A stretch of DNA of 55,292 nt from Chloroflexota bacterium (GTDB lineage: Bacteria > Chloroflexota > Anaerolineae > Anaerolineales > Villigracilaceae). A program made the position numbers and the translations under genes. The notes below the pieces were generated by a model. It searched no databases. It saw nothing but the letters and a program-made list of their open reading frames with translations, and was not told where the DNA came from. Position 1 is the first letter of the stretch; the number at the start of each line of letters is the position of its first letter. This document shows, piece after piece, positions 28,409 through 33,641 of the stretch. Location: contig JACRLC010000041.1 in assembly GCA_016235425.1 (NCBI GenBank), positions 1 to 55,292 on the forward strand, given 5' to 3'.

Positions 28409-28437
28409 TTGAAATGGACTTTGAAACGATGTAATAT
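28409..28437 (+). promoter_or_regulatory. Promoter of the first riboswitch-protease unit
   Basis: TTGAAA (28409-28414), exactly 17 bp, TATAAT-like TAATAT (28432-28437). The aptamer begins about 45 bp downstream. Confidence 0.75.
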
Positions 28438-28482
28438 AAAACTGCTTTAGAGTTGTTGCGCCATTTGTCTGAGAGGTACGGA

Positions 28483-28573
28483 TGCGAACCTCGAAAAGGC
28501 AAACCCACTGCGAGGTGGGGGCGCAAAGTTATGGATCTGCGAGTGAAGCGAGTGCAGACCGCCAGACTGCCGA
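28483..28573 (+). ncRNA. Cyclic di-GMP-I (GEMM-I) riboswitch, copy 1
   Basis: GGCAAACC (28498-28505), a stem CCACT/GGTGG closed by the GNRA loop GCGA, then CGCAAAG (28522-28528), and a second stem TGG...TCTGC with GCAGA...CCA. These are the order and key words of the GEMM-I aptamer. P1 closes through GGC with GCC in the left arm of the following terminator. It sits 130 bp before the start of a secreted protease gene, with its own promoter. Confidence 0.88.
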
Positions 28574-28606
28574 AAGGTTTTTCCTTTCGGCAGTTTTTAT
28601 TTTTTC
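28566..28606 (+). terminator. Expression-platform terminator of riboswitch 1
   Basis: CTGCCGAAAGG (28567-28577) and CCTTTCGGCAG (28583-28593) form an 11-bp stem followed by TTTTTATTTTTT. Its left arm overlaps the 3' strand of aptamer helix P1, so the two structures compete. Confidence 0.88.
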
Positions 28607-28703
28607 AAAGATGTGAAAGGAGGCAGATAGGACGACAGTCTTCGATTCTGATTTCACTATCTTCTGGATCTGTTTAATTCCATATCTAAGGAGAAAAAAG
28701 AAG

Positions 28704-30836
28704 ATGAAAAAGAAAATTCTTGCAACAGTTAGTGTTGTGTTGTTGCTAATCGCTTTATTGCCTGCATCAGTTGCGGCAGATACTCCCCCCGGCCCTCCAA
28801 CGGAATTCCCGCGGAATAACATGGCACCCGCTGGCCCAGATCCTATGGACCTTTCTGTGGAAATGCTCGGCGAAGAGGAGATCGCCTTGCGAAAACAGGC
28901 GGCTGTGGTTGGTTCTGATGTTGCCACCAATGCCTCTCCAATCGGTGAGCCGGCTGATATAGGAGACGAATTAACCATCACTGTCAGCGATAACGGCCTC
29001 GGCGTTGATTATGATGAGACCTTTGTTGTTGTGCTGGATGGCACATGGGGTATCATCCTGATCGAGGAAGCCGCCTACGATTCCTTCGATGGCACATACT
29101 ACCATTTCCCGAATCCGAATGGTTGCTGGCGAACCGAAGATGTCATATCTCATGCACAGCTTTCATATCTGCTGGATGAGTTCGATGGCAACATTTATCC
29201 AACGGTTTCGACCTACTTTGGCGCGCCGCTGCCGCGTGGCGATGAAGGACAAAAAACCTGGATATTGGTCTTCAACATCCGTGACGAGGCATATTACGAC
29301 TGCGCTGAAACCACCTACATCGCCGGTTACTTCTCGGCCAGCGAAAGCGCTACAAACAACAAAAACATCATGCACATTGACTCCTATGATTGGGCCAATC
29401 GTATTGGCGCAAACTCTGCGCGCCCCTTCTTGTATGAGGGAGTCTTTGCTCATGAGTTTGAGCATCTGGTTCACTTTGACATTGACCCAGACGAACCTTC
29501 CTGGGTAGACGAAGGTCTGGCAGATCTAGCTGGCTATTTGAGCGGATATGGTCACTCTGCCGGACATATTGCTTACTATATGGTCTATCATCCATTCACA
29601 GCTCTCACCTTCTGGGGTGGAGGCCTGGAAAGCTATGGTGCCAGCTACCTATTCCAACTGTATCTGTATGAGAAGTTTGGCGGGGCTCCTTTTATCTCTG
29701 CACTGGTGCAGGAACAGGCAAATGGCATTGAAGGGATTGAGAACACCCTGGCGGCTTTTGGCTACACTGAGTCCTTCGATGAGATCTTCGATGACTGGAC
29801 CATCGCCAACTACCTTGACGATACCCGTGTAAACAACCGTTACGGGTATGACACCCTTGTCGTTGGCACCATAGATACCTGGGGATATTCCATAGAGTAC
29901 GCGCTTCAAAACTTCTGGGTTGGCGATCCCTTCCCGGTTTCTCTGGGCTTTAACTCCAGCGATCTCTTCGGCGCTCCAATGCCATATACGGCACATTACT
30001 ACCGCTTTGGCGGGGAACCCACTCTTCGCACTGCCCTGGATGGCAGTGAATTTGCCGGCACCCCTGCTCACAGCGGCGCGTACGAGTGGTATTCAGACAT
30101 GGATGCCTGGGCTTGGCGCAGTTTCTACCAGACGTTCAATGTCCCTGCAAGTGGCGCCACGCTTAACTTCTACACCTTCTTTGAAATTGAGGAGGATTGG
30201 GATTACGGATACGTGGAGGTCCATGATCTGGATACCGATGAGTGGTATACGCTTGATGCCGCAGGGACTGTGAACACCGTGGCTCATGCTCAAGACAATC
30301 CCAATACGCCCACCGGCCGCGAGCCAACCGATTACGAGGCCGCAGGCCGCTGGCATGCCTTCACCGGTTATAGCGGGGGCTGGATTCCTGTTTCGATGGA
30401 TCTGAGTGCATTTGCCGGCCATACCATTGACCTGTACTTTACAAGCTGGCAGGACGGTGCGTTCACTCTTCAAATGATGTACGTGGATGACATCTCGATT
30501 CCCGAGGTTGGATTCTATGACAATGTTGAAGCAGGCGCGGATGGATGGACCACCACTGGCTGGTACAGGACCACTGGCATCCTGCCGAATGACTGGCAGG
30601 CAACTCTCATTGAAACCTTGTGGCAGCCGACCGTGCGCTATCCTAAACCAGAAAACTGGCATGCCCGCAAACTGCTTGATGAGACCTATATGATAATGGA
30701 TCCAGTTACGCAGTCTGGCGAAATTACAGGGATCAATACAACACCTGCAAATTCGCGTCGCACACAGGTTTTGATCGTCAGCAACCGCTTTGATCACATT
30801 CTTACATCAGATTACTGGGTCGAATTCACCCATTAA
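28704..30836 (+). CDS. Secreted gluzincin metalloprotease with InhA-like C-terminal domain
   Basis: A 710-residue exported protease. The signal peptide (residues 1-~26) ends near ASVAA. The zinc site is His250-Glu251-x-x-His254 (FAHEFEHLVH) with the third ligand Glu270 (WVDEGLAD), a gluzincin layout similar to M30 hyicolysin-type enzymes. The C-terminal ~250 residues include a beta domain like that of immune inhibitor A (DMDAWAWRSFYQTFNVP and VDDISIPEVGFYDN). AAGGAG lies ~10 bp upstream of the ATG. Its leader carries a cyclic-di-GMP riboswitch. The target protein is unknown. Confidence 0.87.
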   Translation: MKKKILATVSVVLLLIALLPASVAADTPPGPPTEFPRNNMAPAGPDPMDLSVEMLGEEEIALRKQAAVVGSDVATNASPIGEPADIGDELTITVSDNGLGVDYDETFVVVLDGTWGIILIEEAAYDSFDGTYYHFPNPNGCWRTEDVISHAQLSYLLDEFDGNIYPTVSTYFGAPLPRGDEGQKTWILVFNIRDEAYYDCAETTYIAGYFSASESATNNKNIMHIDSYDWANRIGANSARPFLYEGVFAHEFEHLVHFDIDPDEPSWVDEGLADLAGYLSGYGHSAGHIAYYMVYHPFTALTFWGGGLESYGASYLFQLYLYEKFGGAPFISALVQEQANGIEGIENTLAAFGYTESFDEIFDDWTIANYLDDTRVNNRYGYDTLVVGTIDTWGYSIEYALQNFWVGDPFPVSLGFNSSDLFGAPMPYTAHYYRFGGEPTLRTALDGSEFAGTPAHSGAYEWYSDMDAWAWRSFYQTFNVPASGATLNFYTFFEIEEDWDYGYVEVHDLDTDEWYTLDAAGTVNTVAHAQDNPNTPTGREPTDYEAAGRWHAFTGYSGGWIPVSMDLSAFAGHTIDLYFTSWQDGAFTLQMMYVDDISIPEVGFYDNVEAGADGWTTTGWYRTTGILPNDWQATLIETLWQPTVRYPKPENWHARKLLDETYMIMDPVTQSGEITGINTTPANSRRTQVLIVSNRFDHILTSDYWVEFTH

Positions 30837-30868
30837 CCTGTCTGTTGATGAGTCTGCTGATCATACAC

Positions 30869-30903
30869 AAAAGCGAGGAGGCCGAGACCTCCTCGCTTTT
30901 TGA
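30869..30903 (+). terminator. Rho-independent terminator of the first protease gene
   Basis: AAAAGCGAGGAGG (30869-30881) pairs with CCTCCTCGCTTTT (30888-30900), loop CCGAGA, T-run included. Confidence 0.9.
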
Positions 30904-31059
30904 AATGGTGGATTATGTACCTGCTGTGTGCATCGAATATTATGTGATTCCTTTCCTCCCGCCTCCAACCGGACCCGATAACTGCTACCGTACCCCGACC
31001 ATATCCGCGTTATCGGCCTAGCCTAACTAGTCCATTTGGGGGGAATTTTGAGCAACCAC
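30904..31059. other. Non-coding spacer between the two protease units
   Basis: With its flanking elements it belongs to the 489-bp gene-free stretch 30837-31325. This part shows no open frame, repeat or strong structure. The rest is a terminator, a promoter, the second riboswitch and a leader. Confidence 0.5.
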
Positions 31060-31088
31060 TTGAATTCCACGCTCAAATCATATATTAT
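31060..31088 (+). promoter_or_regulatory. Promoter of the second riboswitch-protease unit
   Basis: TTGAAT (31060-31065), exactly 17 bp, TATTAT (31083-31088). The aptamer starts ~25 bp downstream. The layout matches the first unit. Confidence 0.75.
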
Positions 31089-31112
31089 TTAGGAGAAATT
31101 GGATAATTAATA

Positions 31113-31205
31113 ATACCGAAAAGGCAAACCCATCGTGAGGTGGGGGCGCAAAGTCATGGACCTGTCATTCTGATGCGTACGGGATGGCAGGCCGCCAGAC
31201 CGCCG
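31113..31205 (+). ncRNA. Cyclic di-GMP-I (GEMM-I) riboswitch, copy 2
   Basis: GGCAAACC (31123-31130), stem CCATC/GGTGG closed by the GNRA loop GTGA, then CGCAAAG (31147-31153), then a stem TGGACCTG with CAGGCCGCCA. The distance from GGCAAACC to CGCAAAG is 24 bases in both copies. The stems differ in sequence but keep pairing, which supports a real RNA structure. Confidence 0.88.
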
Positions 31206-31234
31206 AAGTTTTTTTACTTTCGGCGGTCATCCTT
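31199..31234 (+). terminator. Expression-platform hairpin of riboswitch 2
   Basis: ACCGCCGAAG (31199-31208) pairs with CTTTCGGCGGT (31217-31227) around a T-rich loop. The run after it (CATCCTTTT) is a weaker T-tract than in copy 1. A second small stem, CCTTTT/AAAAGG (31231-31245), follows at once and covers part of an AAAGGAGG. Confidence 0.7.
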
Positions 31235-31325
31235 TTAATAAAAGGAGGTGATGCAATCTCGAATACTTAACGTGCGTTCTACCGTCATTTCAGCAAGATT
31301 TTTAGACTATCTGAGGAGAATAGTA

Positions 31326-33641
31326 ATGAAAGCAAAATGGCTTGGCACGTTATTGATTCTTGTAATGCTATCCGTGACCCTTGTGCCCGCGGTTGGCGCG
31401 GCGCCCCCATCGCCCATAGGTGAGGACCCACAGTTTGGTTCGGACACCGATGATGCCGCGCATCCATTGGGCACAGAACAAAGGGAAGCCAAGGCATTGG
31501 CTGTCGAAGCCAAAATGCACGGCAAATCAGATGGGGATGCGGATGAGCATACTCATAAAGTAGATCTGAAACATTACGTTGAGTTAGACCGCCTGGGTGA
31601 AGACACAATCTGGACGATCATCGGGGAGTTTGGCACGCAGATCCATCCAGCTTATGGCGGTACGGCTGGCCCGCTCCACAACGAAATCCCGGAACCTGAC
31701 CGGACAATGGATAACACCACCATTTGGTCCCCGGATTTTAGCAAGGGTTACTACGAAAATATGCTTTTCTCGGAAGCGCCCGGTGCGGTCTCGATGCGTA
31801 ATTTCTACATTGAGCAGTCGTCCAACCGCTATACGGTCAATGGTGTGGTAACCGATTGGGTACAGGTCCCATACAACGAGGCACGCTATGGCGCGAACTA
31901 CTGCGGAAGTATCGTCTGCGCCACCACCTGGCTGTTCGTCCGTGATGAGGTGCAGGCCTGGTACAACTCCCAGATCGCGGCAGGCATGACCCCGGCTGGC
32001 ATTGACGCCTACCTGAGCCAGTTCGATGTTTGGGACCGCTATGACTGGGACGGTGACGGCAACTTCAATGAGTCCGATGGTTACATTGACCACTTCCAGG
32101 CCGTCCATGCAGGCGAAGGTGAAGAGACCGGCGGCGGCGCGCAAGGCACAGATGCCATCTGGAGCCATCGCTGGTACGCGTTTTACAACTTAATTGGGAT
32201 TGCCGGCCCGTCACCTGACTACTTGCTGGGCGGCGTCCGAATTGGTAATTCCAGCTACTGGATCGGTGACTACACCGTTGAGCCCGAGAACGGCGGCGTG
32301 GGTGTGTTTGCTCACGAATTTGGCCATGATCTTGGCCTGCCCGACCTGTACGATACCAGTGGCAACACCGGCGGTGCTGAGAATTCTACCGGCTTCTGGA
32401 CGCTCTACTCCAGCGGTTCCTATGGCAGTTCCGGCAATCCTGAAGACGGAATCGGCTCGAAGCCGATTCACATGAGCGCCTATGAGAAGCTCTTCCTGGG
32501 CTGGTCGAATTATGAGGTGGTCAACTACAACCAGAAAGCAGAGGTCAAGTTAGGCCCTGCCGAATATAACACCCAACATGCCCAGCAACTCGTGGTGTTG
32601 CTGCCTGACAAGGAGGTCAGCTCCTTTATCGGCGATCCGTATGCCGGAAGTTACTTCTACCACTCCGGTGCAGGAAATGATCTCGATAACAGCATGACAC
32701 GCTCTGTCACTCTGCCGGCTGGCGCTGTTTCCCTCTCTGCGCAAGTTCGCTATGATATTGAGCTGGATTGGGATTATGCCTATCTGACAGTCAACGGAAC
32801 CAACGTTGCCACCAACCTTTCCACCAACACGAACCCGAACGGCCAGAACTTTGGCGAAGGCATCACGGGTTCCTCTGGCGGAAACTGGGTGGCGCTCACT
32901 GCCGATCTATCGGCTTATGCCGGACAAACCGTCACCCTCGGCTTCCGCTATTGGACTGACGGCGCGGTGGCTGAAGCAGGCTTTGGCGTGGATGACATTG
33001 CCATTACCGGCCTGCCCACCGACGACGCGGAGACCGATCCGGGCTGGACTTATGCCGGGTTCATCCGCACGACCGGCACGGTCGTTCAGTCGTTTGCCAA
33101 CTTCTACGTGGCGGAATATCGCCAGTATGTCGGCTACGATGATTCCCTGCGCACCGGTCCTTACAACTTCGGTTTCCTGGATACCAAGCCTAATTGGGTC
33201 GAGCACTTCCCATATCAGAATGGCCTGCTGGTCTGGTATCTGGATTATTCATTTGCGGACAATAATGTAGGTGACAACTGCGCCTCCGGGCGTTGCGGCG
33301 GCCTGTTCCTTCCGGTCGACGCGCACCCGGATTTGCTCCTGCGTCCTGACAATGGACAGGTCTGGCGGCCCCGGATTCAGTCGTATGACTCAACATTTGG
33401 TACCGAGAAGACCGACAAGATTTGTCTGCACGTGAACACCACCTTCGTGCAATGCTATGGCGGTTTGAAGGCCAACCCGCTCTTTGACGATACCAAGAGC
33501 TATTGGGTTGCTCCTAATCCCGCCATCGGCCATTTCGGCTGGGCCAGTGTTCCGCTTCCGGGCTTCGGTGTTAAGATCCGCGTAGCCAACATGGAGGATA
33601 AGCCCGGTAGTTTCATGGAGGTGAAGGTCAATAAAAAGTAG
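31326..33641 (+). CDS. Secreted M6-family (immune inhibitor A-like) metalloprotease
   Basis: A 771-residue exported zinc protease. The signal peptide covers residues 1-~26 (LLILVMLSVTLVPAVGA). The M6 zinc motif HEFGHDLGLPD has His330, Glu331, His334 and Asp340. The C-terminal half has the InhA beta domain (SVTLPAGAVSLSAQVRYDIE, later AGFGVDDIAITG), shared with the upstream protease. I chose ATG 31326 because AGGAG precedes it and the signal peptide starts there. An upstream in-frame GTG/ATG at 31248-31251 would place 25 non-hydrophobic residues before the signal. Expression is likely controlled by cyclic di-GMP. Confidence 0.92.
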   Translation: MKAKWLGTLLILVMLSVTLVPAVGAAPPSPIGEDPQFGSDTDDAAHPLGTEQREAKALAVEAKMHGKSDGDADEHTHKVDLKHYVELDRLGEDTIWTIIGEFGTQIHPAYGGTAGPLHNEIPEPDRTMDNTTIWSPDFSKGYYENMLFSEAPGAVSMRNFYIEQSSNRYTVNGVVTDWVQVPYNEARYGANYCGSIVCATTWLFVRDEVQAWYNSQIAAGMTPAGIDAYLSQFDVWDRYDWDGDGNFNESDGYIDHFQAVHAGEGEETGGGAQGTDAIWSHRWYAFYNLIGIAGPSPDYLLGGVRIGNSSYWIGDYTVEPENGGVGVFAHEFGHDLGLPDLYDTSGNTGGAENSTGFWTLYSSGSYGSSGNPEDGIGSKPIHMSAYEKLFLGWSNYEVVNYNQKAEVKLGPAEYNTQHAQQLVVLLPDKEVSSFIGDPYAGSYFYHSGAGNDLDNSMTRSVTLPAGAVSLSAQVRYDIELDWDYAYLTVNGTNVATNLSTNTNPNGQNFGEGITGSSGGNWVALTADLSAYAGQTVTLGFRYWTDGAVAEAGFGVDDIAITGLPTDDAETDPGWTYAGFIRTTGTVVQSFANFYVAEYRQYVGYDDSLRTGPYNFGFLDTKPNWVEHFPYQNGLLVWYLDYSFADNNVGDNCASGRCGGLFLPVDAHPDLLLRPDNGQVWRPRIQSYDSTFGTEKTDKICLHVNTTFVQCYGGLKANPLFDDTKSYWVAPNPAIGHFGWASVPLPGFGVKIRVANMEDKPGSFMEVKVNKK

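Follow-up and report, generated by a model that had tools for sequence, protein, structure and literature searches.

How do two neighboring genes for secreted zinc proteases of different catalytic type come to lie behind what looks like the same riboswitch, and in which direction would that switch act? The question arises from the window analyzed here, the whole stretch of 55,292 nucleotides of contig JACRLC010000041.1 from a Chloroflexota bacterium. The features of the two units are collected in Table 1.

Table 1. Features of the two protease units, with positions in the window
Feature	Unit	Position	Strand	Remarks
Sigma-70-like -35/-10, TTGAAA-17-TAATAT	1	28409..28437	+	Not above shuffled expectation
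Class I c-di-GMP aptamer	1	28489..28575	+	P2 loop GCGA; G20, A47, C92; RF03167 59.1 bits, RF01051 58.2 bits
Intrinsic terminator	1	28564..28596	+	Aptamer 3´ strand, with C92, forms the left arm; textbook form
Far Shine-Dalgarno-like element GAAAGGAGG	1	28615..28623	+	Without a start codon at translating distance
Shine-Dalgarno sequence AAGGAG of protease 1	1	28688..28693	+	
M30/lugdulysin-like secreted zinc protease 1	1	28704..30836	+	710 aa; HEFEH at 250; InhA-like MAM domain
Sigma-70-like -35/-10, TTGAAT-17-TATTAT	2	31060..31088	+	Not above shuffled expectation
Class I c-di-GMP aptamer	2	31114..31208	+	P2 loop GUGA; G20, A47, C92; RF03167 61.0 bits, RF01051 54.7 bits
Hairpin	2	31198..31228	+	Aptamer 3´ strand forms the left arm; weak U-tract AUCCUUUU
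Small hairpin CCUUUU/AAAAGG	2	31230..31246	+	Pairs part of the far Shine-Dalgarno-like element
Far Shine-Dalgarno-like element AAAAGGAGGTG	2	31240..31250	+	
Shine-Dalgarno sequence GAGGAG of protease 2	2	31313..31318	+	
M6 (InhA-type) secreted metalloprotease 2	2	31326..33641	+	771 aa; HEFGH at 330; MAM and VEG domains

Class I c-di-GMP aptamers precede two secreted metalloproteases

The initial annotation had placed a GEMM-I aptamer at the head of each unit and had named a search with the RF01051 covariance model as a way to refute this. Both copies score well above the curated RF01051 cut-off of 35 bits, at the places it had given, and the distance from GGCAAACC to CGCAAAG, start to start, is 24 in both units, as it had described. 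The ligand-contact bases of c-di-GMP-I are G20, A47 and C92 according to the available text of PMC4744006 and PMC9049102; all three are found in both copies when the numbering is transferred to these RNAs by our own alignment. Both also have a GNRA tetraloop on P2, the element that docks into a P3 receptor in c-di-GMP-I riboswitches and may do so here. Judged by covariance model and contact bases, both window RNAs are class I c-di-GMP aptamers.

Each aptamer is followed by a protein with a hydrophobic N-terminus (judged by eye) and an HExxH motif, which agrees with the signal peptide and metalloprotease claimed for each unit. The two catalytic types and common InhA-like domain described before were also recovered, with protease 1 being lugdulysin-like, protease 2 being M6 and the MAM domain PF20773 present in both. 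For protease 2, matches to PF05547, PF20773 and PF20774, an alignment with PDB 4yu5 (E 2.2e-67) and the motif HEFGHDLGLPD, which fits HExxHxxGxxD, identify an M6/InhA peptidase by its catalytic, MAM and VEG domains. Protease 1 had no Pfam peptidase match, and aligned with PDB 7bb8 over residues 141-340 (E 8.5e-8), with HEFEH and WVDEG, the latter holding the candidate downstream Glu ligand, aligned; M30 is its putative family. Upstream of the aptamers, the -35 and -10 motifs with a 17-bp spacer that had been noted are present in both units, but cannot be said to exceed chance because a scan gave 2 promoter-like sites compared to a mean of 4.1 in shuffles.

The aptamer sub-type is associated with secreted peptidases

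From a riboswitch search of 80 genomes, 118 units were taken among the best matches listed, leaving out four at contig ends (G009:C176, G032:C29, G020:C144 and G015:C169). In 33 of the 118 listed units, which come from 26 genomes, the P2 loop is GUGA, GCGA, GCAA or GUAA in place of GAAA. A secreted peptidase lies behind 29 of these 33 listed sub-type units compared to 4 of the 80 genes behind the other 85 units (GAAA-type and other, five without a callable gene), giving a Fisher p of 1.8e-18, though such p-values overstate independence because the units are related by descent. The sub-type peptidases belong to S8, S1, M6, M28 and M30-like families and to 13 genera. The four peptidase genes behind GAAA-type units (L198, L205, L217 and L219) are all S8, and no further peptidase family was seen among the other gene families of the GAAA set (36 families covering 72 of the 80 genes, with eight ruvB genes excluded). 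Genes were picked mechanically, and for some GAAA units, L123, L142 and L181 among them, the choice is open to doubt. In a pattern scan of named genomes, in which 5 of 77 sites had no callable gene, 52 of the 60 units from Chloroflexota likewise head a peptidase (41 of 48 when non-redundant). Records of the cultured species Bellilinea caldifistulae and Thermanaerothrix daxensis are among those that show the pattern.

Among sub-type rows, G20 is kept in 32 of 34 and C92 in 34 of 34 (one row is a duplicate). P2 and P3 covary: for 31 of the 33 units, excluding the near-copy L133 and the ruvB unit L192, 9 of 18 pairs changed on both sides, a value reached by 0 of 500 shuffles, and the paired fraction dropped to 27-43% in slid registers. 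The window pair, described as twins in the initial annotation, is not isolated but one instance of what these comparisons identify as a family-wide set, with one aptamer sub-type and a common leader design mostly heading unrelated secreted proteases. No account of this riboswitch-peptidase set was found in the openly licensed literature. The M30-like/M6 pair itself is found again in L287, from a MAG of Brevefilum fermentans, with the order kept and one aptamer each. No aptamer precedes the orthologue nearest to protease 1 (G010, 69%) or the G020 orthologue, and the L280 unit includes an M6 relative (66%) that lacks a separate aptamer.

Sub-type terminators take their left arm from the aptamer

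A hairpin had been reported behind each aptamer as the expression platform. Hairpins are indeed present in both units, but that of unit 2, followed by AUCCUUUU, is non-canonical with a poor U-tract and was not scored in the terminator scan. Across the set, all 24 scored sub-type terminators overlap the aptamer, with C92 inside the left arm in 22, compared to 3 and 1, respectively, of the 53 scored terminators of other units; 9 of the 33 sub-type units had no scored terminator. When the U-tract was not required, hairpins overlapped the aptamer in 29 of 33 compared to 52 of 85 units, a poor separation of the sub-types that arises, in our view, because the antiterminator of GAAA units also contains C92. 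The earlier statement that the 3´ strand of P1 overlaps the terminator left arm is therefore upheld for the 24 scored sub-type terminators, but this "P1 strand" amounts to a very short stem plus C92, since of 31 sub-type units examined for an extended P1, just 1 paired beyond the level of shuffled controls. The flank pairing in the window was -8.5 kcal/mol (p 0.097) for unit 1 and -0.9 kcal/mol (p 0.66) for unit 2, and an extended P1 was rejected as the switching helix.

Because the C92-containing strand of the aptamer doubles as the left arm of the terminator, c-di-GMP is predicted to turn these genes ON, which we regard as the better prediction for the protease sub-type. The terminators, at -7 to -22 kcal/mol, far outweigh P1 and extended P1 is rare, so that switching would need to be under kinetic control. 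Many GAAA-loop units have a different layout, in which the left arm of a separate terminator can pair with the aptamer 3´ strand (24 of 50 at p<0.05 in one run; 25 of 38 in a second run with ruvB-type units removed, as shuffles vary). Three of the GAAA-type S8 units, L198, L205 and L219, have this OFF-like layout, while L217 was not significant, suggesting that some proteases behind such switches would not be under ON control.

A Shine-Dalgarno-like element is conserved far upstream of the start codon

A second Shine-Dalgarno-like element, AAGGAGGUG, is present in 30 of the 33 listed sub-type leaders (1.7 expected from base shuffles), in 27 of the 30 at 74-110 nt upstream of the start codon, compared to 5 of 77 other leaders (5.6 expected from base shuffles). 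The element was again found in 53 of 61 leaders of a second pattern-scan set (3.1 expected), and in 0 of 9 of the outgroup (1.4 expected). In 3 of the 30 leaders, a usual start codon follows at a spacing suited to translation, in none of them in frame running into the gene, leaving translation of a leader peptide from this element unsupported.

According to the available text of PMC4113751, the STAB-SD of the cry3A mRNA resembles a Shine-Dalgarno sequence but lies in the 5´ UTR, far upstream, and is not used for initiation. The leaders here have in common with cry3A a far, extended Shine-Dalgarno sequence in the 5´ UTR, but their element sits behind a riboswitch terminator and is conserved over a gene set, with a putative role in stabilization. 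A search for RNase J gave a homologue at 567.7 bits. The 16S 3´ tail, sought with strict patterns, was not found in genome G000 or four relatives.

A proposed model for read-through and mRNA stabilization

We consider it probable, taking all parts together, that the sub-type riboswitch acts ON by read-through, that the far element stabilizes the mRNA and that the leader has been reused across peptidases. The two proteases would be transcribed separately, each behind a 5´ leader containing a class I c-di-GMP riboswitch with a non-GAAA GNRA loop on P2. In the nascent RNA, aptamer and terminator would be rivals for the one strand that contains the ligand-contacting C92. Without c-di-GMP, this strand would go to the terminator and transcription would end; with c-di-GMP bound, the aptamer would keep it, and RNA polymerase would read through to allow synthesis of the secreted protease. 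In the read-through mRNA, the non-coding AAGGAGGUG right behind the terminator could then bind a 30S subunit and shield the 5´ end from RNase J, in the manner of the cry3A STAB-SD. Leader and signal peptide together may have been copied, throughout the family, ahead of secreted peptidases that are unrelated to one another.

For the ligand, the Rfam model with the highest score on each of the window copies is not RF01051 but RF03167, c-di-GMP-I-GGC, with the cut-off of 59 bits exceeded (E 1.8e-11 for unit 1 and 5.1e-12 for unit 2, whole window searched), which might point to a variant that senses another molecule. We take "GGC" in the model name to denote a G at position 47. The RF03167 consensus is accordingly CGCGAAG where the window copies have CGCAAAG; A47 is kept in 145 of 145 parsed aptamer rows, both window copies included, and the other 8 of the 10 copies in the same genome score higher with RF01051. 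Since the contact bases are G20-A47-C92, the Rfam name is misleading here and was set aside, and a changed ligand seems very improbable. For the direction, the precedent is OFF: the available text of PMC6366702 reports that all seven functional class I switches of Clostridioides difficile are OFF and that zmpI/PPEP-1, a secreted zinc metalloprotease gene behind such a switch, is negatively regulated. The OFF-like layout of many GAAA-loop units in the same family points the same way, and on this reading c-di-GMP would halt synthesis of the proteases in the window. In every scored terminator of the sub-type, however, the left arm is formed by the aptamer strand, which makes aptamer and terminator mutually exclusive, and we regard OFF control of these proteases as unlikely. 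The likeness to PPEP-1 drawn in the initial annotation thus extends to the general plan and not to the direction, since zmpI/PPEP-1 is one OFF gene, according to the same text, compared to a multi-family set with other peptidases and ON predicted here.

The strong Shine-Dalgarno match of the far element and its near-fixed distance to the gene would also suit a site for ribosome standby or loading, or a short leader peptide that begins there at an unusual start codon; the scarcity of suitably spaced usual start codons, none in frame into the gene, argues against this, and we see it as a real, if lesser, possibility beside a stabilizer. The peptidase association could also reflect inheritance of a few ancestral units rather than a dedicated regulon, as some units, such as L132 and L133, are clearly orthologous and the 33 come from 26 genomes. 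Against this, the leader features are common to all five peptidase families and 13 genera and, in part, so are the signal peptides, of which 38 of 1071 cross-class pairs are at least 55% alike compared to 0 of 1071 for residues 41-66. Inheritance alone is therefore unlikely in our judgment, and reuse of the leader ahead of unrelated peptidases remains the reading we prefer.

Comparison with other class I switches

Typical RF01051 members and the RNAs described here have the same aptamer model, contact bases and transcription terminator platform. The latter are set apart by the P2 loop, by a terminator left arm that is the aptamer 3´ strand, by the far Shine-Dalgarno-like element and by mostly secreted peptidases downstream. 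ON control by read-through, predicted here, is described for the class I aptamer of Bc2-cap in Bacillus thuringiensis; that switch heads an adhesin, and the available text of PMC6366702 and PMC11218506 mentions no far Shine-Dalgarno-like element for it.

A broader extension, which we hold tentatively and at somewhat short of an even chance, is a clade-wide exoprotease regulon of the Anaerolineales. It would combine the terminator-fused ON sub-type and a non-coding, 30S-binding stabilizer, moving between unrelated peptidase genes as a cassette of leader and signal peptide, while GAAA-loop switches in the same genomes would turn cell-surface genes OFF by the same signal. We know of no earlier conserved link that joins a STAB-SD-like element to a riboswitch, so that this would be the first. 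If correct, c-di-GMP would be tied directly, without a protein regulator, to extracellular protein digestion in a group known largely from metagenome-assembled genomes. The two sub-types also provide a natural set in which one aptamer class is apparently wired in opposite directions. The initial annotation read the pair as pointing to a switch between attached and free life, which may or may not apply; the genome of the window itself has 24 GGDEF and 21 HD_5 matches, and thus the enzymes of c-di-GMP turnover.

Twin aptamers and their proteases

The twin class I c-di-GMP aptamers of the initial annotation were recovered by covariance models, one in each of two neighbouring units of the window, which spans the full length of contig C24 in a 5.0-Mb draft genome. 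Both exceeded the RF01051 cut-off of 35 in an Infernal search (58.2 bits in unit 1 and 54.7 bits in unit 2), and the 24-base motif spacing, counted start to start, is exactly the same in the two. The promoters proposed for them are present as sequences, but shuffled sequence contained such matches no less often. Aptamer 1 is followed by a terminator hairpin. The hairpin behind aptamer 2 is strong (about -20 kcal/mol), but AUCCUUUU comes next and it was not scored as a terminator.

Features of the two protease units (window coordinates)
Feature	Position	Details
Class I c-di-GMP aptamer, unit 1	28489-28575	RF03167 59.1 bits, E 1.8e-11 (cmscan)
Protease 1 gene	28704-30836	710 aa; HEFEH at residue 250; InhA-like MAM domain; signal peptide by eye
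Class I c-di-GMP aptamer, unit 2	31114-31208	RF03167 61.0 bits, E 5.1e-12 (cmscan)
Protease 2 gene	31326-33641	771 aa; M6, MAM and VEG domains

The domains agree with the earlier description of secreted zinc proteases of two types sharing an InhA-like domain. Among solved structures, protease 1 matched only lugdulysin, as two sequences: 7bb9 and 7bb8 (E 8.5e-8, residues 141-340). HExxH and, downstream of it, WVDEG were both aligned. Pfam peptidase models gave no match to it, and we tentatively call it M30-like. Protease 2 matched the InhA structure 4yu5 (E 2.2e-67); a second in-frame start is available at 31248, but 31326 was preferred because its Shine-Dalgarno sequence is better placed and the signal peptide begins there.

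The best Rfam name for the window copies was c-di-GMP-I-GGC. The RF03167 consensus, CGCGAAG, has a G at the site that we aligned with the ligand-contact base A47 of c-di-GMP-I, while both window copies read CGCAAAG. As A, not G, stands at position 47 in all 145 parsed rows (of 149, one a duplicate; the remaining four show A by eye), the c-di-GMP-I-GGC reading was set aside. RF01051 outscored RF03167 in 8/10 copies of the same genome, with the reverse for the two window copies.

A protease-associated aptamer sub-type across the family

Of 80 family genomes, 50 had RF03167 matches (E 1e-5). For a first set, 116 regions were fetched around 146 hits (144 among the matches listed plus two further copies from the window's genome), omitting four listed contig-end hits; four extra regions were fetched to examine orthologues. 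Adding the two window units to the 116 regions gave 118 units among the matches listed. The P2 loop in the 149 rows, again among the matches listed, was GAAA in 98, GUGA in 13, GCGA in 13, GCAA in 7, GUAA in 1 and AAAA in 7, and eight rows had other loops or none parsed (seven forms). The GUGA, GCGA, GCAA and GUAA loops define a sub-type of 33 units from 26 genomes among the matches listed, the window's own included. The contact bases G20 (32/34 rows) and C92 (34/34) are kept and, judged by the contact residues given in PMC4744006 and PMC9049102, these RNAs are ordinary predicted c-di-GMP sensors.

Peptidases follow 29/33 sub-type units, spread over 13 genera (S8 subtilases 15, S1 trypsin-like 5, M6 4, M28 3, M30-like 2); the other four genes encode RuvB, a weak-BNR protein, a truncated protease-1 relative and a protein that has a signal-like N-terminus but no assignment. 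Behind the other 85 units, 80 genes were callable (five units had none), four of them S8, with no match to further peptidase families among the 80; the non-peptidases include RuvB (8), sortase-domain (8), LysM (4), SLH (4) and beta-helix (4) proteins. The association (29/33 vs 4/80) gives a Fisher p of 1.8e-18, which is overstated since units share descent. A gene-blind scan of named genomes with a degenerate sub-type pattern, partly overlapping the first set in species, matched 72 stretches. These contain 77 distinct sites; a gene could be called at 72 of them, and 54/72 encode peptidases (by Pfam S8 34, M6 9, S1 8 and M28 1; two M30-like by BLAST). Among Chloroflexota-labelled units the count was 52/60, or 41/48 once genes sharing 99% identity or more with the first set were removed; the eight misses were three BNR proteins (L247, L251 and L277 are BNR-like members), two proteins read as secreted 5'-nucleotidases (such members occur at L256 and L298) and three gene calls that were poor or had no assignment. 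In eight units from Paenibacillus/Cohnella (L232, L233, L254, L268, L281, L291, L295, L297) the same pattern precedes other proteins, some of them very large and several carrying RHS repeats.

The observation of the initial annotation is right, and its interpretation partly right but too narrow: the pair belongs to a wider set. A Brevefilum fermentans MAG (L287) has an M30-like and then an M6 gene, each with its own aptamer and in the window's order (M6 77%, M30-like 33% identical to the window proteins). Each unit likewise has an aptamer in an M6 and S1 pair (L284) and in two rows of S8, BNR and S1 (L247, L251). Within the family, three of four close M6 orthologues (56-77%) have an aptamer directly upstream (G075, G047, G041); for the fourth, in G065, the contig stops at the gene. 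No aptamer precedes the protease-1 orthologues of G010 (L227, G010:C55; the closest, 69%) or G020, where the gene sits behind an S8 unit, and an M6 relative in L280 (2091-4367, minus strand; 66% identical) has none of its own and adjoins an S8 unit with one. The G010 leader keeps AAGGAGGT, and L208 (G049:C94) still has aptamer, leader and signal peptide before its truncated protease-1 relative.

An unusual leader

Terminators were scored in 24/33 sub-type units and 53/85 others. The proposed overlap of the aptamer 3' strand with the terminator left arm was present in all 24 scored sub-type units, with C92 inside the arm in 22, and in 3 of the 53 others (C92 inside in 1). P1 is short, with extended pairing in 1/31 sub-type units. 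When the U-tract requirement was dropped, the contrast fell to 29/33 (sub-type) versus 52/85 (others). Among the others, 24/50 have a separate left arm complementary to the aptamer 3' strand (p<0.05), an OFF-switch layout; a second run without ruvB-type units gave 25/38. From this difference between shared and separate arms, the predicted effect of c-di-GMP is ON for the protease sub-type and OFF for much of the GAAA set. According to PMC6366702, the class I switches of C. difficile are OFF switches, zmpI/PPEP-1 among them, unlike the direction predicted for the window leaders, while Bc2 is an ON switch, as predicted here.

Excluding the last 22 nt before the gene, GGAGG occurs between aptamer and gene in 30/33 sub-type leaders (1.7 expected from base shuffles) and 5/77 others (5.6 expected). 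It lies 74-110 nt upstream of the start codon in 27/30, and in 3/30 a usual start codon follows at a distance suited to translation. The second set, from the pattern scan, gave 53/61 (3.1 expected; consensus AAGGAGGTG) and an outgroup 0/9 (1.4 expected). This far Shine-Dalgarno element resembles the STAB-SD of cry3A, which, according to PMC4113751, does not initiate translation, binds 30S and blocks RNase J; a stabiliser role here is putative. An RNase J homologue is encoded in the window's genome. Part of the element in unit 2 is paired within a small hairpin.

Signal peptides were compared between genes of different classes, taking those of the second set together with the window's own. Mean identity was 0.37 over residues 1-26 versus 0.19 over residues 41-66, with 38/1071 versus 0/1071 pairs at 55% or above (81% versus 19% for the L287 pair), and MKAKW-like starts are seen in M6, S8, M30-like and BNR genes. 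This suggests that leader and signal peptide were copied together, although signal peptides are alike by composition and the likeness is no proof.

Proposed regulation by c-di-GMP

The apparent novelty lies in a sub-type within an established riboswitch class, mostly before exoprotease genes and with an unusual leader; its ligand, direction and stabiliser role are putative. The explanation we prefer, and consider reasonably probable, is that c-di-GMP switches the proteases ON through the strand shared by aptamer and terminator, with the far element as stabiliser. More tentative is an Anaerolineales exoprotease regulon in which ON sub-type and stabiliser travel as a leader/signal-peptide cassette, with GAAA switches turning surface genes OFF. 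Two findings lower the confidence in both: the M6 gene of L280 lacks an aptamer, and three of the four GAAA-set S8 genes (L198, L205, L219) show an OFF-like layout.

The window's genome has 24 GGDEF and 21 HD_5 matches (20 above cut-off) and no EAL match. The GGDEF and HD_5 matches indicate that the cell is able to make c-di-GMP and probably to degrade it with HD-GYP-type enzymes.

Several further arrangements were seen. Class I aptamers, often in tandem, precede ruvB in several family genomes (L179, L187, L190, L192, L196, L204, L213, L216, L224), and single GAAA-type aptamers precede a family of short proteins (~120-153 aa) whose N-terminus is signal-like or pilin-like (L137, L151, L152, L158, L160, L166 and others). 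Position 20 varies within several tandem units of the GAAA type, being A in the first aptamer and G in the last (C21 and C69 of the window's genome, G000, at L189 and L181; L113, L117, L119, L127, L178); A20 is associated with c-AMP-GMP sensing. The GAAA-type unit L223 heads a response-regulator gene, and among genes behind GAAA-type and other units a GGDEF domain and an HD_5 domain occur in one gene each, a hint of feedback on c-di-GMP.
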